Shown here: one piece after another, positions 20,122-57,482 of the stretch | How positions within the stretch are numbered: the stretch's first letter is position 1 | How the letters are laid out: the number at the start of each line of letters is the position of its first letter | NCBI RefSeq assembly: GCF_006543045.1 | Contig: NZ_RBZW01000044.1 | Span: forward strand, 1-64,000 | Direction of reading: 5' to 3' | DNA: 64,000 nucleotides | Source: Salinadaptatus halalkaliphilus | GTDB lineage: Archaea; Halobacteriota; Halobacteria; Halobacteriales; Natrialbaceae | Notes under the pieces: generated by a model | What the model was told of the DNA's origin: nothing | The model's input: the letters and a program-made list of their open reading frames with translations, nothing else | The model's database searches: none | Translations under genes and position numbers: made by a program

Positions 20122-20895
20122 TCAGCTGCCGATCCAGTCGCCGAGGATACTCACGATGACCATGATTACCACGAGCGTCGTCGCGAGCGCGCTAATCTCC
20201 GGACTGAGGCCGGTTTGAATCTGGTTGAAGATGATGATCGGCACCGTCGTCGTACTCGGCGTGACGAGGAACTGCGTCGCCGTGAACTCGCCAAAGGAGA
20301 TGACGAACGCGATCAGCATCCCCGCGATCATCGCCGGGGCGATGACCGGAATCGTCACGTTGAACGTCGTCTCCAACCGATTCGCGCCCATGATCATCGA
20401 CGCGTCCTCGAGCCGTTCGTCGAAGGTCAACAGCCTCGAGCGGACGATGAGAAAGACGAACGGCAGCGCCAGAATCGAGTGTGCCAGGATAATCTGCGGG
20501 TAGCCACGGGGGATCTGCAGGTAGCCACCGAACCGAAGGAACGCGACGCCGGTGATCACCGGCGAGATCATCAGGGGCAACAGCATGATCGTCGCGAGCG
20601 TCTCTTTCATCTTGAACTCGCTACGGACGAAGCCGAAGGCGGTGATCGTGCCGATGATGCCGGCGACGACGGCCGTCGCCGAGGCGACGATCGTACTCAC
20701 GACCATCGCGTCAAGGAGACGCTGATTCTGGAACAGCTCCGCGTACCACTCGAGCGAGACGCCGTCGGTCGGTAGCGTCGGCGCCGACTGAACGGTAAAC
20801 GAGGTCGCGATAACGATGACGATGGGGATCAGCAGTATCGCGTAGACAAGCAGTATGGCGGGAAAGAAAGCCAACCGACCGGAAAGTCGGCTCAT
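20122..20895 (-). CDS. ABC transporter permease (PotC-type)
   Basis: This 257-residue membrane protein has about six hydrophobic helices, beginning LAFFPAILLVYAILLIPIVI. The cytoplasmic EAA loop, which docks on the ATPase, reads ERLEDASMIMGANRLETTFN and then TIPVIAPAMIAG (near residues 165-195). It is the fourth gene of the operon SBP-ATPase-permease-permease and overlaps the previous gene by 4 nt. Family resemblance is to spermidine/putrescine, thiamine and iron importers; in this setting carboxylate uptake is possible. It is one of only two such permeases in the window, against eight binding proteins. Confidence 0.85.
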   Translation of the reverse strand: MSRLSGRLAFFPAILLVYAILLIPIVIVIATSFTVQSAPTLPTDGVSLEWYAELFQNQRLLDAMVVSTIVASATAVVAGIIGTITAFGFVRSEFKMKETLATIMLLPLMISPVITGVAFLRFGGYLQIPRGYPQIILAHSILALPFVFLIVRSRLLTFDERLEDASMIMGANRLETTFNVTIPVIAPAMIAGMLIAFVISFGEFTATQFLVTPSTTTVPIIIFNQIQTGLSPEISALATTLVVIMVIVSILGDWIGS

Positions 20896-21749
20896 AGGTC
20901 ACTGAGCACCTCCGAGATGTTCGCGTAGTGATTGAAGATGCCGATGAGTATCAGCAAGGCGACGGTGAACACGACCGACAGCGCTGCTGCCAGCGGAATG
21001 CTGTAGGAGAACGATTGTTCGATGATATTCGCCATCATGAAGTCACCGGGACCGCCGAGAATCGCCGGTGCGAGGAAGGATCCGGCAGCGAGGATATACA
21101 CGAACAACGCCCCGGCGATGATGCCGGACAGACTCAGCGGGAAAATCACCGTTCGAAGCGTCTTCAACGGCGTCGCGCCGAGGACCTGTGAGGCGTGGAT
21201 GTACTCCTCGTCGATCGACTGCAACGCGTTGTAGATCGGGAGCGTCGCGAACGGCAACAACGCGCTCGTGAGCCCGATAATGGTCCCAGTTGTCGAAAAG
21301 AGGATTCCGAAATCGGTTCCGAACAGCTGTTGGACTGGGCCGGTCGGAAGGAAGAACAGCGAGACCCCGAAGTACCGGATAATGATCGCGATCCAGAGCG
21401 GCAAGAGGACGAACGCGAGCATCAACGTCTTGTGCTCGGCCTTGAACGCGATGTAGTAGGAAATCCAGTAGCCGAGGATCAGACACACGACCGTGGTTAC
21501 GAAGGCGTAGGCCAGCGTTCGACCGAGCGTCCGCACGTACGTTCCACTCAGTGCCTGTCTGTAGTTATCGAGCAACGCACCGTCACCGAAGTTGAAACTC
21601 TCGAAGAGCAATACGATGACCGGAATAATGAAGAACAGCGACAACCAGCCGAGTCCGATCATTACCAACAGCTTCGGCATCGACCGGTCCCGAAGCATCG
21701 ACGGTGGCTTGACGTTCGGGAGCCTGACGTTCCCAATCCCGAACTTCAT
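20892..21749 (-). CDS. ABC transporter permease (PotB-type)
   Basis: This 285-residue membrane protein has about six helices after a short cytoplasmic N-terminus (MKFGIGNVRLPNVKPPSM). Its EAA loop reads EYIHASQVLGATPLKTLRTV and then IFPLSLSGIIAGA, near residues 190-220. It would form a heterodimeric channel with 20122-20895. Start and stop overlap those of its neighbours by 4 nt, indicating translational coupling within the operon. Substrate specificity lies with the binding protein and channel and cannot be deduced. Confidence 0.85.
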   Translation of the reverse strand: MKFGIGNVRLPNVKPPSMLRDRSMPKLLVMIGLGWLSLFFIIPVIVLLFESFNFGDGALLDNYRQALSGTYVRTLGRTLAYAFVTTVVCLILGYWISYYIAFKAEHKTLMLAFVLLPLWIAIIIRYFGVSLFFLPTGPVQQLFGTDFGILFSTTGTIIGLTSALLPFATLPIYNALQSIDEEYIHASQVLGATPLKTLRTVIFPLSLSGIIAGALFVYILAAGSFLAPAILGGPGDFMMANIIEQSFSYSIPLAAALSVVFTVALLILIGIFNHYANISEVLSDL

Positions 21750-22798
21750 AACACGATCACCTCGTCCGGATCGAACTGGACCGTGACATCGTCACCGACG
21801 GCTAGCTCCTGGGAGGTCCGGCTAAATGCGGTGACCGTCGTTCCGTCGTCCAGATCGACTTCGAGCTCCGCTCGGTGACCGAGATACTCTATGTGAGAAA
21901 TCGACCCGGTGAACACGTTGATGTTGCCGTTCGTCCGTGCAGCCTGGTGGACGTCTATCTCTTCGGGACGGACGTACACGGACACGTCGTCGGGGTCGAC
22001 CTGGCTCGAGTCGGTATCGTCGCCGACGTGAATCTCCGTCGACTCCGTTTGGACGACCGGCGAGCTCGTCTCGGCTAACTGTCCCTGGAACTTCGTCGAC
22101 TGGCCGAGGAACTCGGCGACGAATTCGGTCGCTGGCTCGTCGTAGAGCTCCGCCGGCGCACCAGCTTGTTCCTTTTTCCCTTCACTCATGACGATAACAT
22201 CGTCGGACATCGACAACGCTTCGGACTGATCGTGGGTCACGTGTAACGTCGTTACGTCGACCTCCTGTTGGATGGCTCTGATCTCGTTTCGCATGTCCTC
22301 GCGAAGCACGCGATCGAGCCCGGTCAGTGGTTCGTCCAACAGGAGGATATCCGGTTCGTAGACCAACGCCCGTGCGAACGAAATACGACGCTGTTGGCCG
22401 CCACTGAGTTCGTCGGGTTTGTGATCGGCGTGGTCCAACATCTGCACCATCTCGAGATACTTCTCGATCTGTGCCTCGTGATCGCCGTCGAAGCCCTGCA
22501 TCTTCAGTCCGTATCTGAGGTTTTCTTCGACGGTCATGTGCGGAAACAGCGCGGAGTGTTGGAAGACCAGCCCGATATTGCGTTCGTACGGCGGCACATC
22601 GGAGACGTCTTTACCACGAAGATGGACCGATCCCGAGGAGGCATCGATGAGACCTGCAATCGCGTGCAGCGTCGTACTTTTTCCACAGCCACTCGGCCCC
22701 AGCAGCGTTGCAAATTTCCCCTCTTCGATGCGAAACGATACGTCGTCGACGGCGAGCAAATCGCCGTAGTATTTTGTAAGATTTTTGACTTCCAACAT
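21746..22798 (-). CDS. ABC transporter ATPase (PotA-type)
   Basis: This 350-residue ATPase has Walker A GPSGCGKST near residue 35, the Q-loop VFQHSALFPHMTVEEN, signature LSGGQQRRISFARAL near 135, Walker B DILLLDEPLTGLD, and the H-loop LHVTHDQSEALS. Residues 240-350 form a TOBE-like regulatory domain (YVRPEEIDVH, ISHIEYLGHRAELEV). I set the start at 22798 (MLEVKNLTKYYGD) because Walker A then falls at the usual place; a longer frame to 22870 overlaps the binding protein end. It powers the two downstream permeases. As the only such ATPase here, it could serve several binding proteins. Confidence 0.9.
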   Translation of the reverse strand: MLEVKNLTKYYGDLLAVDDVSFRIEEGKFATLLGPSGCGKSTTLHAIAGLIDASSGSVHLRGKDVSDVPPYERNIGLVFQHSALFPHMTVEENLRYGLKMQGFDGDHEAQIEKYLEMVQMLDHADHKPDELSGGQQRRISFARALVYEPDILLLDEPLTGLDRVLREDMRNEIRAIQQEVDVTTLHVTHDQSEALSMSDDVIVMSEGKKEQAGAPAELYDEPATEFVAEFLGQSTKFQGQLAETSSPVVQTESTEIHVGDDTDSSQVDPDDVSVYVRPEEIDVHQAARTNGNINVFTGSISHIEYLGHRAELEVDLDDGTTVTAFSRTSQELAVGDDVTVQFDPDEVIVL

Positions 22799-24155: not shown

Positions 24156-25238
24156 ATGACTAGTGGCGACTCACTACCTTGCAACTCACGACGGCGAGTA
24201 CTGCAAACGGGCGCTGCCATCGCTGGACTCTCAGTAGCAGGCTGTCTCGGCGGCGACGACGACGCGATTACGTTCCTCTCTCGAGGCGGATCGACCCAGG
24301 AAGCCGAACGAGAAATTATGGACGAATGGACCGAAGAGAGCGGTATTACCGTCGAACACCAGGAGGCGCCAAGCGATCAGGAGATGATTCAGTTGATCGC
24401 GGAGAATCCCGGCGCCATCGATTTCACCAACTTTTCTGCGTCAGGCCTCGGGTTGGCCCGCGGGGAACACGACGGTGAACTCCTGGCGGATATCGATTAT
24501 GGCGAGATCCCGAATTATCGCGAGCACGTCCAAGACGAGTGGCAATCGGCTCAACCGATCGACGGTCACGACGATGGCCTCGCGTACCACATCTCGACGC
24601 ATGGACTCGCGTACAATACCGAAATGGTCGACGAAGAGCCGACCTCGTGGGACGTTACGCTCGAGTCCGAGTACGACGAGCAAGTCGTCTTTTCGGATAT
24701 CTCCTACGCTCGATTCGGCGTCGGTGCCGCACACGCCGGGTTGGACGTCAACGAGGCGCTTGCGGACGAAGAGCTTCGTAACGACGTCTACGATCAGTTG
24801 CGCGAACAACACGCGAACGTCCCGACGTACTGGACCAGCGGCGACGAATTCATGCGGCTGCTCCAGGAGGAACAGTCCGCCCTGAGTACCGCCTGGGGCG
24901 GCCGTATCGAGCAACTCCAGGAAGATGGGTACCCCGTCGACTATACGATCCCCGAGGAAGGTGCGCCGTCGTTCTCGAGTTTCATGGTCGTCACCGAGGA
25001 AAGCGAGAACAAAGACGCGGTCTACGATTTCCTAAACTGGTACTATGAGCCCGAGCACGCGGTCCAACACTCGCTCAACTACAACTACCCGACGCCGCTC
25101 GAGGACCCGCCCGAGGAGCTCACGACTCTCCTCGAGTACGTCGAGTCGCCCGACGAGTTGCTGTGGATGGACTTCCAGCTCGTCTTCGAGCATCTGAGCG
25201 AAATCGAGCAAAACTGGGACGAAATCAAAACCGAGTAG
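24156..25238 (+). CDS. Solute-binding lipoprotein 2, orphan paralogue
   Basis: This 360-residue protein has the twin-arginine lipoprotein signal SRRRVLQTGAAIAGLSVAGC near residues 11-31, followed by ITFLSRGGSTQEAEREIMDE and later WGGRIEQLQEDGYPVDYTIP. It is paralogous to protein 1, to which it is divergent, but has no permease or ATPase of its own. It probably feeds the translocator at 20122-22798; this is inference. Differences in the mid-region (FTNFSASGLGLARGEHDGEL) suggest a different ligand. It is convergent with the enoyl-CoA hydratase at 25313. Confidence 0.85.
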   Translation: MTSGDSLPCNSRRRVLQTGAAIAGLSVAGCLGGDDDAITFLSRGGSTQEAEREIMDEWTEESGITVEHQEAPSDQEMIQLIAENPGAIDFTNFSASGLGLARGEHDGELLADIDYGEIPNYREHVQDEWQSAQPIDGHDDGLAYHISTHGLAYNTEMVDEEPTSWDVTLESEYDEQVVFSDISYARFGVGAAHAGLDVNEALADEELRNDVYDQLREQHANVPTYWTSGDEFMRLLQEEQSALSTAWGGRIEQLQEDGYPVDYTIPEEGAPSFSSFMVVTEESENKDAVYDFLNWYYEPEHAVQHSLNYNYPTPLEDPPEELTTLLEYVESPDELLWMDFQLVFEHLSEIEQNWDEIKTE

Positions 25239-25312: not shown

Positions 25313-26104
25313 TCAGTAACCGACGAAATCGGGATCTCGTTTCTCCTTGAACGCTTGGACACCTTCGACGTAGTCCTCCGTCTGGGACGCCTTCGAGATC
25401 CGCTCGGTTTCGTGGGCGAGGTGTTCGGATAGCTGACGTGCGGAGGCTTCCTCGAGCTGGCGTGAAATCGAGCCAAGCGCCTTGGTCGGACCCGAGGCGA
25501 GGGAGGTTGCAAGCTCCTCGAGGCGATCGTCGAACGAATTTGCGTCTGCGACTTCGGTGACGAGGCCGATCTCCTCGGCCTCGGCGGGCGGGATCTTTTC
25601 GTTGAGCAACGCGATGCGTTTGGCCTCTTGGAGACCGACGAGATGCGGGAGGTAGTACGTCGCTGAGCCGTCGCCGGTCAGGCCGACGCCGGGGTAGCCA
25701 AACTGGAGGTAGGCGTCCTCGTGCATGAGCGTGATGTCGCCAAGCAGGGCGAGGGCGAATCCGGCGCCGACGGCCGGGCCGTCGATTCCCGTAACGACCG
25801 GGGTCTCGCCACGTTTCAACTGGTGGACGACATCGTTGAGGAACGACGCACCCCGTCGGAGCCGCGCCGCTGCACTCGAGTCCTCCTCGAAGGAAGTGAT
25901 GTTACCGCCGGCACAGAACACACCGTCGGAGCCACGCAACACGATACAGCGGACATCGTCGTCCTCGTTGAGTTCCGTCCCGAGCCACAGCAGTTCCTCG
26001 GTCATTCCGTCGTTCAGCGAGTTCATCGCCGACTCGCTCTCGATCGAGAGATACGCGATCCCGTCCTCGGTCTGTTCTACCGCGAAGTTATCAAATTCTT
26101 TCAT
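25313..26104 (-). CDS. Enoyl-CoA hydratase/isomerase family protein
   Basis: This 263-residue crotonase-fold protein has the oxyanion-hole loop DGVFCAGGNITSFEED near residues 60-75 and GPAVGAGFALALLGDITLMH near 105, then YPGVGLTGDGSATYYLPHLV. The first catalytic Glu position reads GFALAL and the second YPGVGLTGD, so neither hydratase Glu is obvious. PaaG-like isomerases and other crotonase activities should be considered. The protein ends FKEKRDPDFVGY, the standard C-terminal pattern. It follows the ACAD gene at 26189 on the same strand (84-bp gap), so they may share a transcript. Confidence 0.83.
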   Translation of the reverse strand: MKEFDNFAVEQTEDGIAYLSIESESAMNSLNDGMTEELLWLGTELNEDDDVRCIVLRGSDGVFCAGGNITSFEEDSSAAARLRRGASFLNDVVHQLKRGETPVVTGIDGPAVGAGFALALLGDITLMHEDAYLQFGYPGVGLTGDGSATYYLPHLVGLQEAKRIALLNEKIPPAEAEEIGLVTEVADANSFDDRLEELATSLASGPTKALGSISRQLEEASARQLSEHLAHETERISKASQTEDYVEGVQAFKEKRDPDFVGY

Positions 26105-26188: not shown

Positions 26189-27439
26189 TTACTCGTCGAG
26201 GGCGTCGATGCGTCGTTCCTCGTCGAACCGAAGGACGTTCTCGAGTTCGTCCTCTTCGAGGTCCTCGAACGCCCAGCGGGCGATCGATCGGCGGTGGACC
26301 TCGTCCGGCCCGTCGACGATGCGGAACGGACGGACGTTCTCGTAGAAGTGTGCCAACGGCAGGTCCTTCCCGATGCCGTTCCCACCGCAACACTGGATCG
26401 CGAGGTCGATGATCTCGTTGGTGACGTTCGCGGTGAAGTTCTTGGCCATCGCGACCTCGATGCGGGCGTCGCTGCGATCGAGTTCGCGGGCGGCGTGACG
26501 GGACATCGTCCGCGCGGCGTGCAACCGCGTTTCGGCATCGGCGATGCGGTGTCTGAGTGCCTGTTTTTCGGACAGCGTCGAGCCGAAGCCTTCGCGTTCA
26601 CTAACGTACGCTTTCGCGATCTCAAGCGAGCGCTGGGCCATCCCGGAGTAGCGCATGCAGTGGGTGAGTCGGCCGCCACCCAGTCGCATCTGTGCGACTC
26701 TGAACCCGCCGCCCTCCTCGCCGACCGTGTTCTCGACGGGAACGCGGACGTTCTCGTATTTCACCTCGGCGTGGCCGCCGGTCCGTTCGGTGATACCGTG
26801 GCCGCCGAGGTGGCCGACGTTACGGACGATGTTGACGCCGTCCGTGTCGGTCGGCACGAGGATGATCGACGTCCCTTCGTAGGGATGGGCCTCGAGGTCG
26901 GTGCGAGCCATCACCAGCAGGAAATCCGCGTCCTGACCGTCGGAGGTCCACCACTTGTGGCCGTTGATCACCCACTCGTCGCCGTCTTTCTGGGCGGTCG
27001 TCTGGAGCATCTTCGGGTCGGAGCCCCCACCCTGGAGCGGTTCGGTCATCGAGAACGCCGACGAAATCTCGCCCTGGACGAGCGGCCGCAGCCACTCCTC
27101 TTTCTGTGCTTCCGTGCCGACCATCTCGAGGGTGTGCATGTTCCCTTCGTGGGGCGCGTTCGCACGGATCGAGAGCGCGCCGATCAGCGACCGCCCGACC
27201 TGCTCGAACGATGGCAACATGTCCTGGAAGTCGAGCCCCTGCCCGCCGTACTTCTCGGGCATCTGCGGGGCGAAGAGGTCGCGCTCTTTGGCCATCTCCC
27301 AGAACTCCTCGATCTCGTCTTCGGTGATTTTCTCGCCGGTCCGAAGCGCCTCGCGTTCTCGAGGGATTACTTCCTCGTCCATGAACGATTCGACCCGTGT
27401 CGCTACTTCCTGTGCCGTCTCGGAGTCGTGGTACTCCAT
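26189..27439 (-). CDS. Acyl-CoA dehydrogenase, ACAD10/11-like
   Basis: This 416-residue flavoprotein has FSMTEPLQGGGSDPKMLQTT and EWVINGHKWWTSDGQDADFL in the middle domain, TERTGGHAEVKYENVRVPVE, and the C-terminal FRIVDGPDEVHRRSIARWAF. The DGPDEVH end and GHKWWTSD loop are typical of the ACAD10/11 branch rather than straight-chain dehydrogenases. In animals those enzymes carry a fused APH-type kinase and process 4-hydroxyacyl-CoAs through phosphorylated intermediates. Here separate APH-fold kinases lie at 31315 and 35581, so a two-protein version is possible. That function is inference. Confidence 0.85.
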   Translation of the reverse strand: MEYHDSETAQEVATRVESFMDEEVIPREREALRTGEKITEDEIEEFWEMAKERDLFAPQMPEKYGGQGLDFQDMLPSFEQVGRSLIGALSIRANAPHEGNMHTLEMVGTEAQKEEWLRPLVQGEISSAFSMTEPLQGGGSDPKMLQTTAQKDGDEWVINGHKWWTSDGQDADFLLVMARTDLEAHPYEGTSIILVPTDTDGVNIVRNVGHLGGHGITERTGGHAEVKYENVRVPVENTVGEEGGGFRVAQMRLGGGRLTHCMRYSGMAQRSLEIAKAYVSEREGFGSTLSEKQALRHRIADAETRLHAARTMSRHAARELDRSDARIEVAMAKNFTANVTNEIIDLAIQCCGGNGIGKDLPLAHFYENVRPFRIVDGPDEVHRRSIARWAFEDLEEDELENVLRFDEERRIDALDE

Positions 27440-27522: not shown

Positions 27523-28542
27523 TCAGTCGTTCTTGAGGTCGTCGAGGACGTCGGCCCAGTAGTCGTTGCCGTCGAACGAGAGCTGGATGCGGTCGGCGAT
27601 ACCGCCGTACTTCTCGTCGATTTCGTCCGCGAGTTCCTCGGGTGGGGCTTCGATCGCGAACGCCTCGAGCATGTCGTCGGTAACCAGTTCGGTCATCTCA
27701 CCCCACTTGCCCTCCTTCGAGAGTTCGTGCAGTTCCATCCCGACGTCCTTCCAGCCGTGGAGCTCGAGGACGTCGTGATAGGTTCTGGTCGAGCCGTAGA
27801 AGGCAATGCGCTGTTTCGCTTCCTGGCGCATCTCGGCGCGTTGTTCCTCGGTTTCGCCCGTAATGAGGAACGGGCTGGCTGAGAGAGTTACCTCGTCGGG
27901 ATCGCGGTCGCCGATTTCGGCCCCTTCCTCGACCATCGGCCCGATGACCTCCTCGGTGTATTTTGGCGTGTTGAACGCGTGCATACAGAGGCCGTCGGCG
28001 ACGTCGCCGGCCATCTTGAGCATGTATTCGCTGACGCCGGCGACCCAGATGTCCGGCGGACCGCTCTCGAGGGGACCGGGGTTGAACTCCTCGGTCATGA
28101 GCGAGAACTGGAAGAACTCGCCGTCGAAGTCGAGTTCGTCCTCGTTGCCTTGGAAGACGTCGAAGATATGGTTGAGCGCGAGGACTTCCTCGCGAAGGCG
28201 CGAGCCCGGACTCTCCCACTCGAAGTCGACCGAGAAGCGTCGTTCGTTGTGCCCCTTGACCTGGGTGCCAAGCCCGAGGATCATGCGCCCGTCGGAAAAC
28301 CGCTGTAAGTCCCACGCCTGGTAGGCAAGCACCATCGGCGATCGGGTAAACGATGTCGCGATCCGAGTTCCGATTTCGATGTCATCCGTCCGCTCGGCGA
28401 CGAGCGGAAGGGGGAGGAACGGGTCTTCGTCCGTCTCCGGTGTGAAGACGCCGTCGAAGCCGAATTCCTCGGCCTGAGCCGCGAGTTCCGCCGATTCCGT
28501 CGACAATCCTTTCACTGCCGTATCGATTTTGAGGTCTGTCAC
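27523..28542 (-). CDS. Luciferase-like (LLM) flavin/F420-dependent oxidoreductase
   Basis: This 339-residue TIM-barrel protein starts at a GTG (28542), read as VTDLKIDTAVKGL. Motifs include AEEFGFDGVFTPETDEDPF, IATSFTRSPMVLAYQAWDLQ and GRMILGLGTQVKGHNERRFS (residues 85-110), as in F420- or FMN-dependent oxidoreductases. The start is chosen because the fold begins there; the frame continues upstream to 28734 with unrelated composition into the promoter of binding protein 3. It follows the divergent gap with that protein and lies upstream of the ACAD10/11-like gene on the same strand (84-bp gap). The reaction could be oxidation of an alcohol or acyl intermediate; specificity is unknown. Confidence 0.8.
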   Translation of the reverse strand: MTDLKIDTAVKGLSTESAELAAQAEEFGFDGVFTPETDEDPFLPLPLVAERTDDIEIGTRIATSFTRSPMVLAYQAWDLQRFSDGRMILGLGTQVKGHNERRFSVDFEWESPGSRLREEVLALNHIFDVFQGNEDELDFDGEFFQFSLMTEEFNPGPLESGPPDIWVAGVSEYMLKMAGDVADGLCMHAFNTPKYTEEVIGPMVEEGAEIGDRDPDEVTLSASPFLITGETEEQRAEMRQEAKQRIAFYGSTRTYHDVLELHGWKDVGMELHELSKEGKWGEMTELVTDDMLEAFAIEAPPEELADEIDEKYGGIADRIQLSFDGNDYWADVLDDLKND

Positions 28543-28764
28543 GTTCGAGTGCACTATTGGCAGGCAGGAAAATAATAGTACCGCTAAGAACTGCTCTGCC
28601 GGCGACACGGCAGTCGACGGACGAGTCGGTCCGTCGTACCGACAGCCGGTGCAACCGCGACTCGTTCTCCGATCGTACCGTCGACCACCACTGGTAATTC
28701 CCACGCCGACAGAATGGATAATTATGCAAATCATTTAATAAGGTTCTCCAGAGAACGTAGTACG

Positions 28765-46362: not shown

Positions 46363-46405
46363 GTCGGTGAGTGACACGGGAGACTGAATCGGCGAGTGAC
46401 GCGGG
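46363..46405. promoter_or_regulatory. Direct repeats upstream of the LLM gene
   Basis: GTCGGTGAGTGACACGGG (46363-46380) and ATCGGCGAGTGACGCGGG (46388-46405) agree at 15 of 18 positions and are 25 bp apart. They directly precede TTTTATGAG, the TATA box of the gene at 46444, with the ATG 28-33 nt further on. They could be activator sites for the divergent pair. Confidence 0.5.
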
Positions 46406-46443
46406 TATAGTTTTATGAGGAGCGTCTGCAACTGTACTGTCGT

Positions 46444-48827: not shown

Positions 48828-50432
48828 CTATGACTCCCAGCCGACCATCTCGCCGGCTTCGTCCTCGAGGGGCTGTTTGAGGACTTTTCCGGTCGGATTC
48901 CGTGGCAACGACTCGAGGAAGACGAACTCCCGTGGTTTCTTGTAGTCCGCGAGTCGCTCACCGACGTACGTCTGTAACTCCTCGGCCGATGGCTCCTGTC
49001 CGTCCTGTGGGACGATCGCCGCCTTGATGCGTTCACCCCAGGTGTCGTCGGGTGCGCCGACGATCGCGACCTCGTCGACGGCCGGATGCTCGTGGAGGGT
49101 CTCCTCGATTTCGGCCGGGTAGACGTTCTCTCCGCCGGTGATGATCATGTTGTCGGCACGACCGATGAACTCGACGAACCCGTCTTCGTCCTGGCGGACC
49201 AGATCGCCCGAGATGAAGAAACCGTCCTCGTCGAAGACCTCGTCGGTCTTCTCGGGCATCCCGTAGTAGCCGTTGAACATCGTCGGGCCGCGATAGCAGA
49301 CCTGACCGATTTCGCCGGGTTCGACCTCCTCGTGGGTGTCCGGATCGATGACCTTGAACAACACGTTGATGACTGGCTTGCCGACGGTGTCGGCGTGGTC
49401 GAGCGCCTGGCTGGGCTGGAGCAGTGTCGTCACCGGCGACATCTCGGTTTGCCCGAAGGCTTCCTGTAGTTCGGCGTCGAACGCCGCCGAAATCGTCGCT
49501 TTGAGTTCTTTCCCGGACGGCGCAGCACCGATGCCGAACTCCTCGAACGCCGAGAGGTCGTACTCCTCGAAGTCCTCGACCGCGAGGAGGGCTCGAGCCA
49601 TCGTCGGGACGAAGAAACCGGCGGTTACCGCTTCGTCCTCGAGCACGCTCATGACCCGGTTCGGTTCGAACCCGTCCATCAGGACGGTCGTCGCGCCCGC
49701 GTAGTAGTTGTTGATGAACATCCCGAACGCGGAGATGTGAAACAGCGGTGTGACGATCATCCCCCGTCCGTCGACGTCGACGTCGCGTCCCTCGAAGGCC
49801 TTCTCGACGATCCCGTTGACCGACATCTGGATGACGTTGTCGTGGGTGAGCAGACAGCCCTTCGGATCGCCGGTCGTCCCCGACGTGTACATCAACATCG
49901 CCTCGTCAACCCGCGAGGAGACGATCTCGACGGCGCTCGTCGCGGACTGCTCGCGGAAATCGACGTAGTCGTCGGCGTACGCCGGTCGGTCCGTTCCGTA
50001 GAATAGCATCTCGTCCGGCGTCGTCGGTTCGTCGTGGATCTCGTCGACGATGTCCGCAGCTTGGTCATCGAACAAGAGGAGTTCTGCGTCGGAATCCTCG
50101 AGGACGTATCGAACCTCGTCGGCTTTGAATCGGTGGTTGACCGGCACCGGCAACGCGCCGATTCGCATGGCCCCGAGATACATCTCGAGGGTCGGAATCG
50201 AGTTGGTCGTGTAGACGGCGACTTTGTCGCCGCGGTCGATGCCACGCTTTCGTAACCCGTTGGCAACCTGATTGATCCGCTCGTCGAACGTGGCGTTCGT
50301 GATCGCCGTTCGACCCCCTTCGACGGGCGTCATGACGATCGCCTCCTTCTCGGGGAACTTGTATGCGTTCCGCTCGGCAAGCCAGCTAAGGGTTAGCCCT
50401 TGCATGGGATGTGCAAACACACGTTCCGACAT
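48828..50432 (-). CDS. Acyl-CoA synthetase (AMP-forming)
   Basis: This 534-residue ANL ligase has LMYTSGTTGDPKGCLLTHDN near residue 187, ELQEAFGQTEMSPVTTLLQP near 320 and FFISGDLVRQDEDGFVEFIG near 410, with the C-terminal lysine in PRNPTGKVLKQPLEDEAGE. It resembles the ligase at 33965 (same RNPTGKVLK and GQTE loops), probably paralogues. I placed the start at 50432 (MSERVFAHPMQGLTLSWLAE); a frame reaching 50597 has a non-acidic leader that does not fit. It is downstream of the DUF59 gene on the same strand (128 bp). Confidence 0.87.
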   Translation of the reverse strand: MSERVFAHPMQGLTLSWLAERNAYKFPEKEAIVMTPVEGGRTAITNATFDERINQVANGLRKRGIDRGDKVAVYTTNSIPTLEMYLGAMRIGALPVPVNHRFKADEVRYVLEDSDAELLLFDDQAADIVDEIHDEPTTPDEMLFYGTDRPAYADDYVDFREQSATSAVEIVSSRVDEAMLMYTSGTTGDPKGCLLTHDNVIQMSVNGIVEKAFEGRDVDVDGRGMIVTPLFHISAFGMFINNYYAGATTVLMDGFEPNRVMSVLEDEAVTAGFFVPTMARALLAVEDFEEYDLSAFEEFGIGAAPSGKELKATISAAFDAELQEAFGQTEMSPVTTLLQPSQALDHADTVGKPVINVLFKVIDPDTHEEVEPGEIGQVCYRGPTMFNGYYGMPEKTDEVFDEDGFFISGDLVRQDEDGFVEFIGRADNMIITGGENVYPAEIEETLHEHPAVDEVAIVGAPDDTWGERIKAAIVPQDGQEPSAEELQTYVGERLADYKKPREFVFLESLPRNPTGKVLKQPLEDEAGEMVGWES

Positions 50433-50559
50433 AGATATTTCGGTTAACACGATAGGGGCCCTCGAATGGCCGAGGAGTGGTTGCGACCCGCTCGCTCGTC
50501 GGGCCGCTGTACCGATATTCCGGCACGACAGGACGGTCGCGGTCGTGCCGGACGTGATA

Positions 50560-50937
50560 TCAGTCGTCGCTCGGGGTGCGTTCACCGCTAGCTTCACGTT
50601 CGCGATACCGATTCGCCCGGGACTGTTTTCGTTGTTCGCGCTTCCGACGTGCCTCCTCGGACATCATGTCCTGGTGCCACTCGACTCCCGAATCGGTCTC
50701 GAGCGTGACGGTATCGACGCCCTCGAGGGATCCGACGCGGTCTTCGACCTCGTCGATGAAGAACGGAATCTGCATGCAAAACGGCGTCGTCAGGTGCATC
50801 GAGACGGTGACGTGGCCGTCGTCGATATCGATCTCGTCGATCAACCCCATCGACACGATGCTGAGGTCGGTTCCGTTGGCCGCGCTACAGGGGTCGACGA
50901 TCTCGTCGAGTCGCTCGCGAACGCGGGCGTCGTCCAT
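50560..50937 (-). CDS. DUF59/MIP18 family protein (PaaD-like)
   Basis: This 125-residue protein has the MIP18/DUF59 layout: RVRERLDEIVDPCSAANGTD at the start, then LSIVSMGLIDEIDIDDGHVT, and MHLTTPFCMQIPFFIDEVED with a cysteine in the usual metal-associated place. Residues 95-125 form a charged, lysine/arginine-rich tail (EEARRKREQRKQSRANR). The family supports iron-sulfur cluster insertion and includes PaaD. Its ATG shares one base with the amidohydrolase stop (TGATG), so the two are translationally coupled. It might assemble a cluster on, or deliver metal to, a partner enzyme; the partner is not evident. Confidence 0.8.
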   Translation of the reverse strand: MDDARVRERLDEIVDPCSAANGTDLSIVSMGLIDEIDIDDGHVTVSMHLTTPFCMQIPFFIDEVEDRVGSLEGVDTVTLETDSGVEWHQDMMSEEARRKREQRKQSRANRYREREASGERTPSDD

Positions 50938-52034
50938 CAGGCCACCTCCTCGGTGGCGTCCGTCGTCGAGTAGGGGTCGGCGAGTCCGTCCTCGGCCCGG
51001 TGCGTGGCGAACTCGTCGTCGGCAATTTTCGACTGTGCGTCGTCGATATCCAGCCCGATGAGGTCGGCGTAGTTCTCGCCGAGTATCTTCCGTTTGTGCT
51101 CGTCGGTGATCTGTGGCAGTTCGCCCATCGCGCTCGTCTGCTTCCGTATATCGTCCGGAAACTCGAAGTCGCGAAACGCCTCGAGTTGCGGTTTCGGGTG
51201 GACCGACATCGCGCCCGAACTCCAGAACAGCCGATCCATGCCGTCCTCGCCGAGCAAACTGATCAGTTCGGCCAGTATTTCGGCGAACCGGCGCTCGTTG
51301 CCCAGCAGGATCGGCGGCACGCCCTCTAAGTTGACGTAAACGTTCGGGAACCGCGCGAGCTGCCAGGCGGTCTCCTCGGTGAACGCGAACCCGCCGTGGA
51401 CGATACTGAAGGTGAGGTCCGGAAAACTCTCGGCGGCAACATCGACGTCACGCGGGTGGTACGGCCCACGGGGTACCGGGCCGAACGGAATCGCTTTGTG
51501 GATGTCGATGAGGTCGATACCGAGGTCGATCGCTTTTTCGAACACCGGAAACGCCACGTCAGGATCGCCCATGCTCCACCCCTCGTGATGGTCCGCGCTC
51601 CAGTGAGAAGGATAAAGTTTGACCCCGATCGGATCAAACGCCTCGACTTGTTCTTCTAACGTTTCCTCCCACCCGTCTCGGAGCGGGTCGACGGCGGCGT
51701 ACGATCGGAACCGGTCAGGCCAACGGTCGACGACCGCGTCGGCCTTCTCGTTGGCGACCAGTCCGTCGTGAAACGCGTACATCGGGACGGGATGGAACGT
51801 CGACATATCCGTGTAGCTCTCCCGAAACAGCATGTTCGCAGTCTCCTCGACGCCCCAATCGCGAACGAACGCCTCGGGCTCGAGGCAGTACTCGTCGGGC
51901 ATGATGCCGTCGACGTTTCCGTAGAGCATCTCCGTGATCCCCTCGGCGTGTTGTTCGTTGCGGTAGTTCGAGGGTGCCATATTGTACGCGTGCGTAATGG
52001 CGTCGTAGACGAACGTCTCCTCGAGGTCGATCAT
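50937..52034 (-). CDS. Amidohydrolase_2 family metal-dependent hydrolase/decarboxylase
   Basis: This 365-residue TIM-barrel protein resembles ACMSD, gamma-resorcylate decarboxylase and related Amidohydrolase_2 members. It has a modified N-terminal metal region (FVYDAITHAYNMAPSNYRNE, with one His in place of the classical HxH), FDPIGVKLYPSHWSADHH near residue 130, FSIVHGGFAFTEETAWQLA near 215 and LFWSSGAMSVHPKPQLEAFR near 285. Decarboxylation of an aromatic or unsaturated acid, or hydrolysis of a cyclic compound, is possible. It is coupled to the DUF59 gene. It is divergent from binding protein 6, which might supply its substrate. Confidence 0.8.
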   Translation of the reverse strand: MIDLEETFVYDAITHAYNMAPSNYRNEQHAEGITEMLYGNVDGIMPDEYCLEPEAFVRDWGVEETANMLFRESYTDMSTFHPVPMYAFHDGLVANEKADAVVDRWPDRFRSYAAVDPLRDGWEETLEEQVEAFDPIGVKLYPSHWSADHHEGWSMGDPDVAFPVFEKAIDLGIDLIDIHKAIPFGPVPRGPYHPRDVDVAAESFPDLTFSIVHGGFAFTEETAWQLARFPNVYVNLEGVPPILLGNERRFAEILAELISLLGEDGMDRLFWSSGAMSVHPKPQLEAFRDFEFPDDIRKQTSAMGELPQITDEHKRKILGENYADLIGLDIDDAQSKIADDEFATHRAEDGLADPYSTTDATEEVA

Positions 52035-52234
52035 CGCGTCTCCCCTCGTACGTCGTGTGTTACTCCGCTAGTCGACGATCTACGGCCGGAACTGTCATTT
52101 GATACCATGCAACGCGACCCACCACTGCCGTCGACAAAAACCTATTGACTGGTTGTAACGACAATCGTCGTTGGGTTTTCACGGTTGTATGATAGGAACT
52201 CGTTGAGCGAAGGTCCCCACGAAATGTGGGTAGG

Positions 52235-52241
52235 TTTATAT
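52235..52241 (+). promoter_or_regulatory. TATA box of binding protein 6
   Basis: TTTATAT in GGTTTATATGTGG lies 27-33 nt before the ATG at 52268. The hairpin CCCCAC-GAAAT-GTGGG sits just upstream (52215-52230). Confidence 0.5.
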
Positions 52242-52267
52242 GTGGTGGGAGTCAGATACAGCCACGG

Positions 52268-53341
52268 ATGCGTACTGTTAGCAACACGCGAGCAGTCAGT
52301 CGTCGACGGCTGCTCCAGACCGGTGTCGTAGCCAGTGGTATCGCCATCACGGGATGTCTGGGTGGAACGGATCAAACGCTCGGATACATCAGCAGGGGTG
52401 GTATCACCCAGGAGGCAGAGCGAGACGTCATGGAACAGTGGTCCGAGGAAAGCGGCATCGAGGTCACCCACCAGGAGGCCGCGGACGATACCGAGATGCT
52501 CGAACTCATCGCGGAGAATCCCGAGGAGTTCGACTTTACGAACCTCGTCCCTGCAGCCTTCTCGCAGCATCGGGTGTTCCATGACGAAGAGTTGTTCGCC
52601 GAGATCGATTACGGCGAGATTCCGAACTACGACAACATCAAAGACTCCTGGCAGGACGCCCCGTTTCTCCAGGGCCACGACTACGGGACGTTTTATTACA
52701 ACAACTCCCAGGGGATCGCGTACAACACCGAACACGTCGAACCGACCACCTGGGAGGAGTTGAAAGACGAGGAGTACGAGGACGTCATTTCCTTACATGA
52801 CAACGCCGTGTCACGATTCGCCAACACCTGTGCGATGGCCGATATCGATCCCGCCGAGGCCGTACACGACGATGAATTGTTCGACGAGGTGTTCGAGGAA
52901 ATGGAGGAGTTCCATCCCAACGTCGTCACCTACTGGGCGGCCGGCGACGAGTGGATGCGGCTGCTCCGCGAGGAACAGACCTACGCCGTCGAAGGATGGG
53001 GTGGTCGGACCGAGAATCTACAGGACGACGGGCTCCCCATGGAGTACGTTATCCCCGACGAAGGCTGTCTCACCTACTCGACTGGCTTTGCCATCGTCGA
53101 GGAAAGCGACATGAAAGACGAGGTCTACGACCTGCTAAACTACTTCTACGAACGCGAGAACGCGGTCGAACTCACGCTTGGCCACGGCTATCCGGTCCAA
53201 CTCGAGGATCCACCCGAGGAGATCACCAACCGGCAGGACTACACCGATCATCCCGACGACGTGCTCTGGTTCGACTGGGATCAGATCTATCCGGAACTGG
53301 AGCGTATCGAGCAACGGTTCAACGAACTCAAAGCGCAGTAG
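52268..53341 (+). CDS. Solute-binding lipoprotein 6, orphan paralogue (tandem)
   Basis: This 357-residue PotD-like protein has the signal SRRRLLQTGVVASGIAITGC (residues 11-30) followed by LGYISRGGITQEAERDVMEQ, and later GHDYGTFYYNNSQGIAYNTE and WGGRTENLQDDGLPMEYVIP. It ends WFDWDQIYPELERIEQRFNE. A TATA box at 52235-52241 supports the ATG at 52268. It is followed by a close tandem paralogue (53489-54562), with which it shares long stretches including IPNYDNIKDxWQDAPFLQGH. This suggests a recent duplication. No translocator is nearby. Confidence 0.88.
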   Translation: MRTVSNTRAVSRRRLLQTGVVASGIAITGCLGGTDQTLGYISRGGITQEAERDVMEQWSEESGIEVTHQEAADDTEMLELIAENPEEFDFTNLVPAAFSQHRVFHDEELFAEIDYGEIPNYDNIKDSWQDAPFLQGHDYGTFYYNNSQGIAYNTEHVEPTTWEELKDEEYEDVISLHDNAVSRFANTCAMADIDPAEAVHDDELFDEVFEEMEEFHPNVVTYWAAGDEWMRLLREEQTYAVEGWGGRTENLQDDGLPMEYVIPDEGCLTYSTGFAIVEESDMKDEVYDLLNYFYERENAVELTLGHGYPVQLEDPPEEITNRQDYTDHPDDVLWFDWDQIYPELERIEQRFNELKAQ

Positions 53342-53465: not shown

Positions 53466-53488
53466 CTAACTCATTGTGTGACAATGTC

Positions 53489-54562
53489 ATGAGTGTTGGT
53501 GACAACCATCAGTCAGTAACGCGGCGGCAGGTGTTACACACCGGCGCCGTCGGCGGCGCTATCGCAGTAACCGGTTGCGTGGGTAGCGGCGACGACTCGA
53601 TCTCGTACATCAGTCGCGGTGGTGCCACCCACGACGCCGAACGCGAGGTAATGGCGGAGTGGTCGGACGAATCCGGTATCGATGTCACGCACCAAGAAGT
53701 CGCAGACGACACGGAAATGCTCGAGCTTATCGCGGAGAATCCCGACGAGTTCGACTTCACGAACCCGAATCAGGCGGCGTTCGCCCAGCACGGGCTGTTG
53801 TACGACGAAGAACTGTTCACCGAGATCGATTACGGCGAGATTCCGAACTACGACAATATCAAGGACGACTGGCAGGACGCGCCGTTCCTCCAGGGTCACG
53901 ATTACGGGACGTTCTACTACAATAACTCCCAGGGGATCGCGTACAACACCGAGCACGCGGACCCGACATCGTGGGAGGACATCAAGGACCCGGATCATGA
54001 AGATGTCCTCACCCTCCACGACAACGCGATCGCGAGGTTTGCGAACACGTGTGCCCAACTCGACCTCGACCCGGCCCAAGCAGTGAACGACGACGCGCTG
54101 TTCGAGGACGTATTCGACGAAATGGAGGCGTTACACGAGAACGTCTTCACGTACTGGGCGGCCGGCGACGAGTGGATGCGGTTGCTCCGGGAAGAGCAAG
54201 CGTACCTCGTGGAGGGATGGGGCGGTCGAACGGAGACGCTCATGCAGGACGACCATCCCGTCGGGTACGTCATCCCCGAAGAGGGGTGTCTCACCTACGC
54301 GACCGGTTTCGCCGTCGTCGAGGCAAGCGATATGAAAGACGAGGTGTACGATCTGCTCAACTTCCTCTACGAACGAGAAAACGCCGTCAGCCTGTCACTC
54401 GGGCATAGATACCCGGTCCAGCTCGAGGATCCGCCCGACGAGATTACCGGCCGCTACGATTACGTCGACGATCCCGACGAGGTCGTCTGGTTCGACTGGG
54501 ACGAGATCCTGCCGATACAGGACGAACTCGAGGAACGGTTTAACGAAGTTAAATCGCTGTGA
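53489..54562 (+). CDS. Solute-binding lipoprotein 7, orphan paralogue (tandem)
   Basis: This 357-residue protein has the signal TRRQVLHTGAVGGAIAVTGC (residues 11-30) followed by ISYISRGGATHDAEREVMAE. The middle shares GHDYGTFYYNNSQGIAYNTE with protein 6, and WGGRTETLMQDDHPVGYVIP follows. It ends WFDWDEILPIQDELEERFNE. It is the close tandem duplicate of protein 6. It has its own TATA box, so the two copies may be expressed separately. The ACAD at 54726 lies 163 bp downstream on the same strand. Ligand unknown. Confidence 0.88.
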   Translation: MSVGDNHQSVTRRQVLHTGAVGGAIAVTGCVGSGDDSISYISRGGATHDAEREVMAEWSDESGIDVTHQEVADDTEMLELIAENPDEFDFTNPNQAAFAQHGLLYDEELFTEIDYGEIPNYDNIKDDWQDAPFLQGHDYGTFYYNNSQGIAYNTEHADPTSWEDIKDPDHEDVLTLHDNAIARFANTCAQLDLDPAQAVNDDALFEDVFDEMEALHENVFTYWAAGDEWMRLLREEQAYLVEGWGGRTETLMQDDHPVGYVIPEEGCLTYATGFAVVEASDMKDEVYDLLNFLYERENAVSLSLGHRYPVQLEDPPDEITGRYDYVDDPDEVVWFDWDEILPIQDELEERFNEVKSL

Positions 54563-54725: not shown

Positions 54726-55892
54726 ATGCAGACGCCCGAGACGGACATCCACGAACTGATCCGCGATTCGGTACAGGACCTCGCTGCCGACTTCGATTCG
54801 AACTACTGGCGCGAGCACGTCGAAGAGAAACGCTTCCCCGAGGAGTACTGGGAGGCACTCGCCGATAACGGCTGGCTCGGCGTCGCCATCGACGAGGCCT
54901 ACGGCGGCGAGGGGATGGGCATGCACGAGATGGCCATCGTTATCGAAGAGTTGGCCCGCGGCGGCGGCCAGGGTGGCATCATCTTCATTCTGACGCCGGT
55001 CTTCGGCGGCATTAGCATCCAACGTCACGGCACGGACGAGCAGCAATCGACGTATCTACCCCAGATCGTCGACGGCGACATGAAGTTCTGTATGGGGCTG
55101 ACGGAGGCGAACGCGGGGACGAACACGCTCTCGATCGAGACGACGGCCGAGAGGGACGGCGACGAGTTCGTGATCCACGGCGAGAAGACGTTCATCAGCA
55201 GCGTCGAAACCGCGGACGAGATGTTGCTCGTCGCTCGAACGTCGCCGTTCGATCCGTCGAACCCAGTCCACGGCGGCACGCTCTTTTTGATCTCGGATCC
55301 GGCCGAACGCGACGCCGTCTCGCTGTCGACGCTCGATACCGCGGTGCCGTGGTTCGAACACCAGTATCAGGTCAGTATCGACGGCCTCCGCGTTCACGAG
55401 GACGACGTTCTCGGGGCGGTCGACCACGGGTTCAAACTCATGTTCGATACCCTCAACACCGAACGCATCGCTGGCGCGGCCAGCGCGCTCGGCGGCGGAC
55501 TGCGAGCAATCGACCTCGCCGTCGAGTACGCGAACGACCGAGACGTCTTCGGACAGCCGATCGGCTCTCACCAGTCGATCCAACACCCCCTCGCCGAGTC
55601 CTACGCCAAACTGCTGGCCGCTCGAGAAATTACCTACAGCGCGGCCTCGAAGTGGGACGCCGGCGCGGACTGCAGCATGGAGACCAACGCCGCAAAACTG
55701 CTGACGAGCGAGTTCAGTACCGAGGCGGCGTCTCGAGCGATCCAGACCCACGGCGGGAACGGCTTTACGAAAGAGTACGAGGTCTACCAGATCTGGCAGA
55801 ACTCCAGGCTGACACAGACCGTCCCGGTCTCGAACGAGATGGCGAAAAACCACATCGCGGAACATCACCTCGGACTCCCTCGCTCCTACTGA
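54726..55892 (+). CDS. Acyl-CoA dehydrogenase family protein, atypical active site
   Basis: This 388-residue ACAD has FCMGLTEANAGTNTLSIETT near residue 120 and EFVIHGEKTFISSVETADEM near 145, then QYQVSIDGLRVHEDDVLGAV. The C-terminal QTHGGNGFTKEYEVYQIWQN is followed by TQTVPVSNEMAKNHIAEHHL, where the usual Glu-Gly-Thr segment is replaced by Thr-Val-Pro-Val. The catalytic base is therefore elsewhere or lost. A start at 54726 (MQTPETDIHELIRDSVQDLA) suits the family length. Its stop TGA is the first three bases of 85-bp repeat R5. Confidence 0.85.
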   Translation: MQTPETDIHELIRDSVQDLAADFDSNYWREHVEEKRFPEEYWEALADNGWLGVAIDEAYGGEGMGMHEMAIVIEELARGGGQGGIIFILTPVFGGISIQRHGTDEQQSTYLPQIVDGDMKFCMGLTEANAGTNTLSIETTAERDGDEFVIHGEKTFISSVETADEMLLVARTSPFDPSNPVHGGTLFLISDPAERDAVSLSTLDTAVPWFEHQYQVSIDGLRVHEDDVLGAVDHGFKLMFDTLNTERIAGAASALGGGLRAIDLAVEYANDRDVFGQPIGSHQSIQHPLAESYAKLLAAREITYSAASKWDAGADCSMETNAAKLLTSEFSTEAASRAIQTHGGNGFTKEYEVYQIWQNSRLTQTVPVSNEMAKNHIAEHHLGLPRSY

Positions 55893-55974
55893 TACGGATT
55901 GTTGTAGCGTTTTACCAGTGATCACCGACCCCGTCCGGGTGATCGCCGGTAAAGAACTACAACGGTCCGTATGA
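55890..55974 (+). repeat. 85-bp palindromic repeat, copy R5
   Basis: It runs from TGATACGGATTGTTGTAGCG to CAACGGTCCGTATGA. The TGA at 55890-55892 is the stop codon of the upstream acyl-CoA dehydrogenase. The outer arms match R1 (minus strand, 5931-6015), but the inner GTGATCACCGACCCCGTCCG is in the opposite orientation. The last TGA (55972-55974) is also the first TGA of copy R6. Confidence 0.88.
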
Positions 55975-56056
55975 GACGGTCTGCTGTATCGTGTTATCGG
56001 CGCGACCGCAGACGAGTCACGATGGCAGCGATAAATCGGTACAGCAAACCGCCCGA
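55972..56056 (+). repeat. 85-bp palindromic repeat, divergent tandem copy R6
   Basis: TGAGACGGTCTGCTGTATCG begins the element and CGGTACAGCAAACCGCCCGA ends it, exactly 85 bp. It shares its first TGA with the end of R5, so the two are joined head to tail. The arms are degraded, but GCGACCGCAGACGAGTC and ATAAATCGGTACAGC keep the family layout. Confidence 0.55.
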
Positions 56057-56114
56057 ACCGCTACGGAGACAGCGAGACAACACCTTTATCACGTATTGTG
56101 TTATCTGTTATCGT

Positions 56115-57482
56115 ATGTCATTTGATGGCATTACTCGCCGGGAAACACTCGGAGGGATCGGTGCTGGAGGTGCGAGCGTCCTCGCCGGTTGTTTCGGCGG
56201 TGGGTCCGACGACGACGACGATGCACTTCACATACTCACCGACCTCTCGAGCGACGAGTGGCAAGAATACTGGGATAACGAACTCATCCCAGGCTACGAG
56301 GAGGAGTACGGCCTCCCCGTCGACCACGAGTACACCGGACTCGACGAGGTCGGCCGACAGCGACTGGCGACGCTGATGCAGGCGCAGGATCCGCCCGGCA
56401 TTTTCCACGCGAGCCTTCCCGAAATCGGCGATCTGGTCAATCAAGGACAGCTCGCCGAAGTCGGCGACGTGCTCGCCGACCTCGAGGATGAGTGGGGCGA
56501 GCCGGTGTTTCGCTACCTCCTCGAGCCGGTCGACGGGCAAATTCTGAGCATCCCGCACGGTCCCTACATCGGGTGCCTACAGTACCGCGAGGACCTCTAC
56601 GACGAGTTGGGACTCGAGGTTCCGGAAACGTGGGACGACCTCCTCGAGAACGCTCGTGCGATCGACGAGATGGACAACGAGGTACGCGGGTTCGGACTGC
56701 CAGCAGGTCCCGCAGGTAAGCCCGACGCCGACTTTTCGTGTTGGCTCGCAAACGCTGGCGGCGATCGATTCGAGTGGGGTGACGACGACGAGGTCGAGTT
56801 AGTGTACGAGGAAGACGACGTGCTGGCCGTCTTCGACTTACTCCAGGAGCTCGCCCAGTACTCGCCGGATCCGACGAGTCTGGATTACGGGACGACGATC
56901 GAGTACTGGGCCAGCGGTCGCATCGGCCAGTGTATCATGCTCAACGCGTGGGTCTGCTCGGCGGCATACGCCGCCGGTGCAGAAGAGGTCGCGCTCAACA
57001 CGAAACAGGAAGTCGTCCCCCGCCGGGATGGCGTCGATCCGGACGGTCGTGGCTTCGTCGTAATGACCGGTGCGGCGGTACTCGAGGGCGCGACCCACAC
57101 CGAAGGGGCCAAAGACTTCAACCGGTATATGTACGGGCCCGAACGCCACATCGAGGTTAGCCTGATGGAGCCCATGCGATTCCTGCCGCCGTACGAATCC
57201 ATCCTCGAGCACGAGGAGTACCGCAGTGCCGACATCTTCCAGGTCGACGACGGCTACTTCCTCGAGCGCAACGAGTATCTCCTCGAGGAGATCGCCCCGC
57301 AGGTATCGGATCCGGAGAGTCCGACGACGCCGGAGACGCTCGGCTTGCTGTCGTTCGACATCGATTCCCAGATGACCAATCGACTCATCGCCGAGGAGGA
57401 AGACCCCGAGGATGTCTACGAGTGGGGGATGAACGAACTCGAGCAGCGGTTTGACGATGTCAAAGCGAACTCGAACTACTGA
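56115..57482 (+). CDS. Solute-binding lipoprotein of the UgpB/family-1 type
   Basis: This 455-residue protein belongs to a different family from the seven paralogues. It has the signal TRRETLGGIGAGGASVLAGC (residues 8-27) followed by an acidic linker GGGSDDDDD. The mature part has LSSDEWQEYWDNELIPGYEE, YIGCLQYREDLYDELGLEVP and ETWDDLLENARAIDE, typical of extracellular binding proteins for sugars and other solutes. No permease of the matching UgpAE type is in the window. The chosen ATG at 56115 places the twin arginines correctly. It is followed after 77 bp by a ligase on the same strand, and carboxylate uptake could be its role. Confidence 0.82.
   Translation: MSFDGITRRETLGGIGAGGASVLAGCFGGGSDDDDDALHILTDLSSDEWQEYWDNELIPGYEEEYGLPVDHEYTGLDEVGRQRLATLMQAQDPPGIFHASLPEIGDLVNQGQLAEVGDVLADLEDEWGEPVFRYLLEPVDGQILSIPHGPYIGCLQYREDLYDELGLEVPETWDDLLENARAIDEMDNEVRGFGLPAGPAGKPDADFSCWLANAGGDRFEWGDDDEVELVYEEDDVLAVFDLLQELAQYSPDPTSLDYGTTIEYWASGRIGQCIMLNAWVCSAAYAAGAEEVALNTKQEVVPRRDGVDPDGRGFVVMTGAAVLEGATHTEGAKDFNRYMYGPERHIEVSLMEPMRFLPPYESILEHEEYRSADIFQVDDGYFLERNEYLLEEIAPQVSDPESPTTPETLGLLSFDIDSQMTNRLIAEEEDPEDVYEWGMNELEQRFDDVKANSNY

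Follow-up and report, generated by a model that had tools for sequence, protein, structure and literature searches.

Multiple PotD-like receptors around one PotABC-type translocator in a haloarchaeal acyl-CoA gene island

What use can be made of seven receptors of one family when permeases are encoded beside only one of them? The question is raised by a stretch of 64,000 nucleotides (the window; contig NZ_RBZW01000044.1, positions 1 to 64,000) from the haloarchaeon Salinadaptatus halalkaliphilus, where the genes for seven PotD-like solute-binding proteins (SBPs), SBP1-SBP7, are set in an island with some thirty genes of fatty-acid-type breakdown around them. A profile search of the whole 4.52 Mb genome yields 14 proteins of the Pfam family SBP_bac_8, half of which (7/14) are encoded within 32 kb of the window. 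Judged from sequence comparison, the best reading, with a probability of about two in three, is that the many receptors would use one PotABC channel and supply one pooled coenzyme A (CoA) pathway. Sharing of the translocator had been proposed from inspection of the window's letters (the sequence-only reading), and draws support from the gene content of six genomes, from a PotABC operon that is receptor-less in five of them, from two (G144 and G401, below) having no close second translocator, and from conservation of the docking interface together with group-specific variation at several pocket columns. The genes at the center of the argument are as follows.

18487 to 20031, minus strand: AMP-binding acyl-CoA ligase, directly downstream of PotC
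20122 to 20895, minus strand: PotC-like permease
20892 to 21749, minus strand: PotB-like permease
21746 to 22798, minus strand: PotA-like ATPase (ABC_tran and TOBE_2); start chosen to match relatives, 350 aa
22804 to 23883, minus strand: SBP1, PotD-like Tat lipoprotein, sole receptor in an operon with PotABC
24156 to 25238, plus strand: SBP2, orphan PotD-like receptor
28714 to 29859, plus strand: SBP3, orphan PotD-like receptor; 28765 is another possible start
37251 to 38360, plus strand: SBP4, orphan PotD-like receptor; 37293 is another possible start
43124 to 44212, plus strand: SBP5, orphan PotD-like receptor, downstream of the short-chain dehydrogenase/reductase (SDR) gene at 42272
52226 to 53341, plus strand: SBP6, orphan PotD-like receptor
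53474 to 54562, plus strand: SBP7, orphan PotD-like receptor, tandem paralogue of SBP6

The seven receptor genes of the sequence-only reading are all open and in place, its starts at 28765, 37293, 43151, 52268 and 53489 corresponding to the upstream choices 28714, 37251, 43124, 52226 and 53474 used here. Their products are homologues alignable over full length at 45-73% pairwise identity, all above the SBP_bac_8 cut-off in the whole-genome search (65-90 bits vs 27), and every one has the RR and lipobox [VI][AT]GC of lipoproteins exported by twin-arginine translocation (Tat). The motifs ascribed to them hold with minor variation: the WGGR core is invariant, while ISRGG, TQ and IPDEG are near-invariant, with exceptions in SBP5 (MGRGG for ISRGG), in SBP7 (TH for TQ) and at one variable site in IPDEG. 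An AlphaFold model of SBP4 (pLDDT, its predicted local confidence score, 88.6) has PotD structures as its best Foldseek matches, at E about 1e-23, including VcPotD1 and the E. coli PotD of the PotABC complex. SBP1 scores 62 bits against the NCBIfam PotD model, whose cut-off is 582. None of SBP1-SBP7 belongs to the TctC family (of the Bug/TTT kind); all are of the SBP_bac_8/PotD family.

SBP1 is followed by PotA, PotB, PotC and then the acyl-CoA ligase, and PotA with TOBE_2 plus two PotB/PotC permeases is the domain make-up of a type I ABC importer of the PotABCD type. That the first receptor alone has permeases and an ATPase is borne out, since only SBP1 adjoins PotA, PotB and PotC and no permease lies beside SBP2-SBP7.

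Is the association of these receptors with this translocator more than a peculiarity of one genome? Among 125 Natrialbaceae genomes, close relatives of the receptors occur in six, the window genome and five relatives (G144, G379, G120, G354 and G401), and island-type PotC (77% or more) is confined to the same six. The island is near gene-for-gene syntenic in G144, G379, G120 and G354, with G401 having many of its genes in another order, and the ligase is immediately 3' of PotC in 5/6 islands (the window and the four syntenic ones). PotABC is kept in all five relatives (in the syntenic islands PotC at 88-89%, PotB at 81-82% and PotA at 78-80%; in G401, 75-77%). In all five SBP1 is missing, being restricted to the window genome among the six islands, and no other receptor substitutes for it in the operon. 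Scattered receptors number four in G144, four plus one broken in G379, five in each of G120 and G354 and two in G401, the window having seven. (In the draft genome of G379, SBP7, at C86:55727-56897, and an acyl-CoA dehydrogenase gene, ACDH29989, at 33645-34564, are each split, through decay or sequencing error.) With single-copy receptor relatives in other haloarchaea, 14/15 have PotABC homologues in the same 18-kb stretch, mostly directly adjacent, the remaining one being L075; PotB was missed or merged by gene calling in a few of these loci. Single-copy relatives at L066-L068 have genes resembling those of aminotransferases and aldehyde dehydrogenases as neighbors (by eye), a setting that would be in keeping with gamma-aminobutyric acid (GABA) or a similar amino acid.

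The next PotC homologue besides the island copy is just 31% identical in G144 and 48% in G401, so that no close homologue is available there as a private permease for each receptor. Unlinked permease sets dedicated to each receptor, an arrangement that had been named as telling against sharing, were not found and are ruled out on these two genomes. A lesser version, where some receptors use another PotABC and leave the island translocator to SBP1 alone or to a few of them, is unlikely. The other set would chiefly be one on contig C71 of the window genome, which has its own receptor, with PotA, PotB and PotC 65-66% identical to those of the island; that receptor branches inside the island receptor radiation, and a related second PotC, 62-66%, is present in G379, G120 and G354. 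However, G144 and G401 keep their four and two island receptors without a C71-like set, the C71 receptor has an interface that has diverged from that of the island receptors (identity 0.31 vs 0.46 overall, ratio 0.67), and the five islands without SBP1 still retain PotABC. The C71 PotDABC (L063, 2760-11395), the closest paralogous set, adjoins electron-transfer flavoprotein and oxidoreductase-like genes (fixABC-like, by eye); the same arrangement of PotDABC with electron-transfer-flavoprotein-like genes is also found in L065.

Receptor groups 2, 3, 4, 5 and 6/7 are each monophyletic across genera (support 100/99 or 100/100), with 67-89% identity within orthologous groups, from which it follows that the receptors diverged before the genera or that the island was transferred between genera as a unit. 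The possibility that SBP1 is a recent copy of SBP4 is ruled out, SBP1 being a separate, older branch of the receptor tree. The island PotABCs form a single clade (100/99), with the C71 set as its neighbor, and two receptors that have a PotABC of their own (C71 in the window genome and C2 in G354) branch inside the receptor radiation. The receptor tree thus appears richer than the translocator tree, as would be expected if several receptor lineages adopted one translocator. Patchy retention (2 to 7 receptors), the tandem pair SBP6/7 and the broken copy in G379 bring to mind redundant duplicates under birth-and-death evolution, sharing the channel and also the ligand, with an effect on dosage rather than range; but the groups are stable across genera at the identities just given and several pocket columns are fixed within groups and differ between them, making this quite improbable.

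Receptors that share a translocator would be expected to have a surface in common and, if their ligands differ, pockets that do not match. In the E. coli complex, PotD Y56, T58 and D212-E222 face PotB/PotC, and an E220A/G221A/E222A mutant binds weakly (PMC11414716); interface and pocket columns were mapped by alignment, at about 20% identity, to that PotD. Between groups, the interface columns have an identity of 0.71 vs 0.50 for all columns, a value reached by 0.6% of random sets of columns and by 1.4% of controls made of contiguous blocks, such column counts not being independent samples since the receptors share descent. For each window receptor against the other six, interface identity exceeds overall identity, with ratios of 1.18-1.51. 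Identity at seven direct ligand-contact columns, a subset chosen post hoc, is 0.26 between groups and 0.88 within them; interface residues therefore differ less than these contact residues, the opposite of what had been suggested would speak against a common channel. PotD position 255 is W/F/H/W/H/Y and position 257 is T/S/N/T/E/T for groups 1/2/3/4/5/67, fixed within groups. A further set, positions 84-85 and 255-258, has stronger variability but was picked after looking and is given no weight. As a separate matter, SBP3 of G144 (L047, 17404-18501) has the interface DEFMRLLREDQ, which is SBP4-like, as against DQFMQWMRE.Q in other SBP3 orthologues, with gene conversion or adaptation being possible.

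Conservation of the transport interface also bears on whether the orphan receptors are instead sensors, with the lipoproteins, once ligand-bound, signalling to membrane transducers, as BasB and CosB do in Halobacterium, and with the catabolic genes responding. Orphan solute receptors act in sensing elsewhere, as in the Bordetella Bct system (cited in PMC5994714), and the island receptors are lipoproteins with AT-rich upstream elements of their own (by eye). Yet no transducer or histidine kinase is among the identified island genes, where the nearest regulator-like gene is Lrp/AsnC-like, at 16486 (by eye), and the island receptors are found with the island PotABC in exactly the same six genomes. 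A sensory role is accordingly very unlikely.

What, then, would a shared channel carry? The enzyme kinds encoded around the receptors are acyl-CoA dehydrogenases, CoA ligases, hydratases, SDRs, luciferase-like monooxygenase (LLM) type oxidoreductases, two kinases of the aminoglycoside phosphotransferase (APH) type, a class III CoA-transferase, an amidohydrolase and thiolase genes.

25313 to 26104, minus strand: enoyl-CoA hydratase/isomerase (ECH25313)
26189 to 27439, minus strand: ACAD11/LvaC-type acyl-CoA dehydrogenase (ACDH26189), DGPDEVH motif
27523 to 28584, minus strand: F420-dependent LLM oxidoreductase (LLM27523), TIGR03617 family
29989 to 31191, plus strand: acyl-CoA dehydrogenase (ACDH29989)
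31315 to 32454, minus strand: APH-type kinase (APH31315)
32569 to 33816, plus strand: acyl-CoA dehydrogenase with catalytic-site TEGS in place of the ACAD11 Asp
33965 to 35491, minus strand: acyl-CoA ligase
35581 to 36657, minus strand: APH-type kinase (APH35581), resembles the ACAD11 kinase domain
36654 to 37133, minus strand: small acidic protein (hyp36654), overlaps the start of APH35581
38445 to 39218, minus strand: SDR dehydrogenase
39390 to 40382, minus strand: metallo-beta-lactamase-fold hydrolase
40432 to 42129, minus strand: acyl-CoA ligase (ACS40432)
42272 to 43057, plus strand: SDR dehydrogenase
44288 to 45463, minus strand: class III CoA-transferase (CaiB type)
45539 to 46480, minus strand: enoyl-CoA hydratase
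46444 to 47442, plus strand: LLM oxidoreductase
47581 to 48807, plus strand: acyl-CoA dehydrogenase
48828 to 50597, minus strand: acyl-CoA ligase
50937 to 52034, minus strand: amidohydrolase 2
54726 to 55892, plus strand: acyl-CoA dehydrogenase
55971 to 57482, plus strand: SBPX, eighth orphan receptor, SBP_bac_1 family; true start probably internal
57560 to 59182, plus strand: acyl-CoA ligase
60028 to 62593, minus strand: thiolase (60028), OB-fold/Zn-ribbon partner (61182) and condensing-enzyme-like protein (61598), at the island's conserved right end

Polyamine uptake, as annotation implies, is rejected, the ligand-contact acids being absent from both receptors and permease. PotD D168, E171 and D257, the acids that hold the polyamine amines (1POT), are replaced in the island receptors (SBP5, with Glu at 257, being the exception), and D108 and D198 of PotC, together with its scoop-loop residue K223, are P, G and Q in island PotC. 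Where PotD has V172 and S232 there is an invariant Arg, and every island receptor also has Arg in place of W34. Loss of polyamine-contact residues, the invariant arginines and, in five islands, an acyl-CoA ligase gene immediately after PotC together suggest carboxylates as the island cargo. To that extent the earlier idea that each receptor delivers a different acid is plausible, with regard to the acids, from the lost polyamine residues and the CoA-ligase linkage.

There is a pointer to the kind of acid. With ACAD11, ACDH26189 gives a match at E 7e-70 (apart from entries for ACAD11 itself, nothing but one bacterial dehydrogenase, sharing the motif, came to 1e-60), and its VDGPDEVH and RLGGGRLTHCMR align to ACAD11 8v3u, giving it the catalytic Asp and R/H/R helix of ACAD10/11 and LvaC, residues that are taken from PMC12440821. 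APH31315 and APH35581 both have the HGDxxxxN and DWE motifs, and APH35581 matches ACAD11 across its kinase domain (E 2e-14). Given this dehydrogenase and the two kinases, 4-hydroxy acids come first among the candidates for the cargo, or at least some of it. The small protein hyp36654 overlaps the kinase gene, is 70-84% conserved in the four syntenic islands and is lost together with the kinase in G401; family searches gave no match, and its assignment as LvaB is unsupported.

The scheme that emerges has up to seven interchangeable PotD-fold lipoproteins that would serve one PotABC-type importer. Anchored at the membrane's outer face, each would bind a small carboxylic acid of its own, related to those of the others. 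All would dock on the same PotB-PotC surface, and one ATP-driven channel would take in several acids. Inside the cell, ligases would turn the acids into CoA esters, which common acyl-CoA dehydrogenases, hydratases, SDRs and thiolases would pass to beta-oxidation; for 4-hydroxyacyl-CoAs an APH kinase and an ACAD11/LvaC-type step would be suitable. Gene content, synteny, phylogeny and residue patterns are the parts that have been shown, whereas it is inferred that every receptor docks on island PotBC, that the ligands are acids, that they differ among receptors and that 4-hydroxy acids are included. A more tentative proposal, with odds somewhat short of even, is that a PotABC-type channel lost its dedicated receptor, that acid-specific interchangeable receptors open 4-hydroxy and related acids to the pooled CoA pathway, and that the receptor set turns over faster than channel and enzymes.

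Several points weigh against the shared channel with a pooled pathway. In the window genome SBP1 could serve PotABC alone, and a second PotABC, ~65% identical, is present. Taken together, the 12 pocket positions vary no more than the average column (0.47 vs 0.50), as W229, Y293 and others are shared by the entire family; the seven-position subset is accordingly a choice made post hoc. The identity over which the interface was mapped is low, and SBP docking surfaces are constrained anyway. Moreover, the C2 receptor of G354, which is outside the island and has its own PotABC, has an island-like interface (0.71 vs 0.47, ratio 1.53), so that interface likeness is not unique to sharers and supports rather than proves sharing. 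An ACAD11-type dehydrogenase copy (E 1e-150 or better) is present in 77/111 good family genomes, commonly without the island, and island-less relatives of ACDH26189 in the family are 57-88% identical to it; the dehydrogenase is consequently not island-specific. Lastly, receptor and adjacent enzyme do not travel together. In a presence table of the six genomes, too few for a statistical test, SBP2 is absent from G144 and G401, yet ECH25313, ACDH26189 and LLM27523 are kept; SBP3 is kept without ACDH29989 in G120 and G354, with the reverse in G401. The sole co-loss that fits pairing is that of SBP4 with APH35581, hyp36654 and ACS40432 in G401, and most island enzymes are better conserved than the receptors. 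Given this independent gain and loss, the pairing of each receptor with neighboring degradative enzymes, envisaged in the sequence-only reading, is not supported; one common pathway supplied through several receptors accounts for the pattern better than separate modules do.

SBPX, which the sequence-only reading overlooked, is unrelated to SBP1-SBP7. A 55% paralogue of it is at C42:44587-45966 of the window genome (G000), ~1.2 kb from two BPD_transp_1 permease matches (C42:41901-43390). SBPX and its 54-55% paralogue are both present in the window genome, G379, G120 and G354 and both absent from G144 (best match 36%), and because of this joint presence and absence SBPX may use the second translocator, on C42. 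In another genome (G005 C1:1646000-1653100, L085/L086), a related acyl-CoA cluster has an SBPX-like receptor (36%) beside PotA-like and PotC-like (29%) ABC genes, an arrangement indicating that ABC importers of another family also accompany acyl-CoA clusters.

As to significance, the island amounts to a small experiment of nature in the broadening of an ABC importer's substrate range, with the channel constant and the receptor set varying from 2 to 7 across six genomes, and with docking and ligand-contact positions readable separately in the receptors. It suggests, too, that some of the PotD-like proteins to which polyamine transport is ascribed in haloarchaeal annotation are carriers of carboxylic acids, and it hints at a 4-hydroxy acid route in archaea. 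A literature search of open-licence papers found no paper on such a haloarchaeal island. The starting premise of one receptor per transporter is not universal, for several homologous lipoprotein receptors on one permease are established for S. pneumoniae Ami-AliA/AliB (PMC11139975), and for the Bug receptors of the tripartite tricarboxylate transporter (TTT) systems of Bordetella and Rhodoplanes, with expanded orphan solute receptors and few membrane partners, sharing has been proposed (PMC5994714). To call the island a new type was therefore an overstatement; the sharing principle is known in bacteria and it is the archaeal form that looks new.

Comparison with these and other systems shows where the island differs. 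The lva operon and the ACAD10/ACAD11 pathway (PMC12440821) similarly combine an APH-type kinase, a catalytic-Asp dehydrogenase (DGPDEVH), a CoA ligase and an SDR in one locus, whereas in the island the genes are separate, each with several paralogues, there is an ABC importer, and no LvaB homologue is recognised. Bug/TTT resembles it in having expanded orphan receptors with few membrane partners, but involves the TctC family and a secondary TTT transporter, neither ABC nor PotD-like. With Ami-AliA/AliB the likeness is in the use of several homologous lipoprotein receptors with one translocator, known in the island from genes, where it is conserved across species; the difference is that the pneumococcal receptors are peptide-family SBPs, three in number, in a bacterium and with no catabolic island. 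The single-copy haloarchaeal PotDABC relatives are of the same receptor and translocator family, but have one receptor per PotABC, usually adjacent. PotABCD of E. coli (PMC11414716) has the same fold, gene set and domain make-up; the island, however, is without the polyamine-contact acids of PotD and PotC, and has conserved arginines, many receptors per translocator and linkage to acyl-CoA genes.

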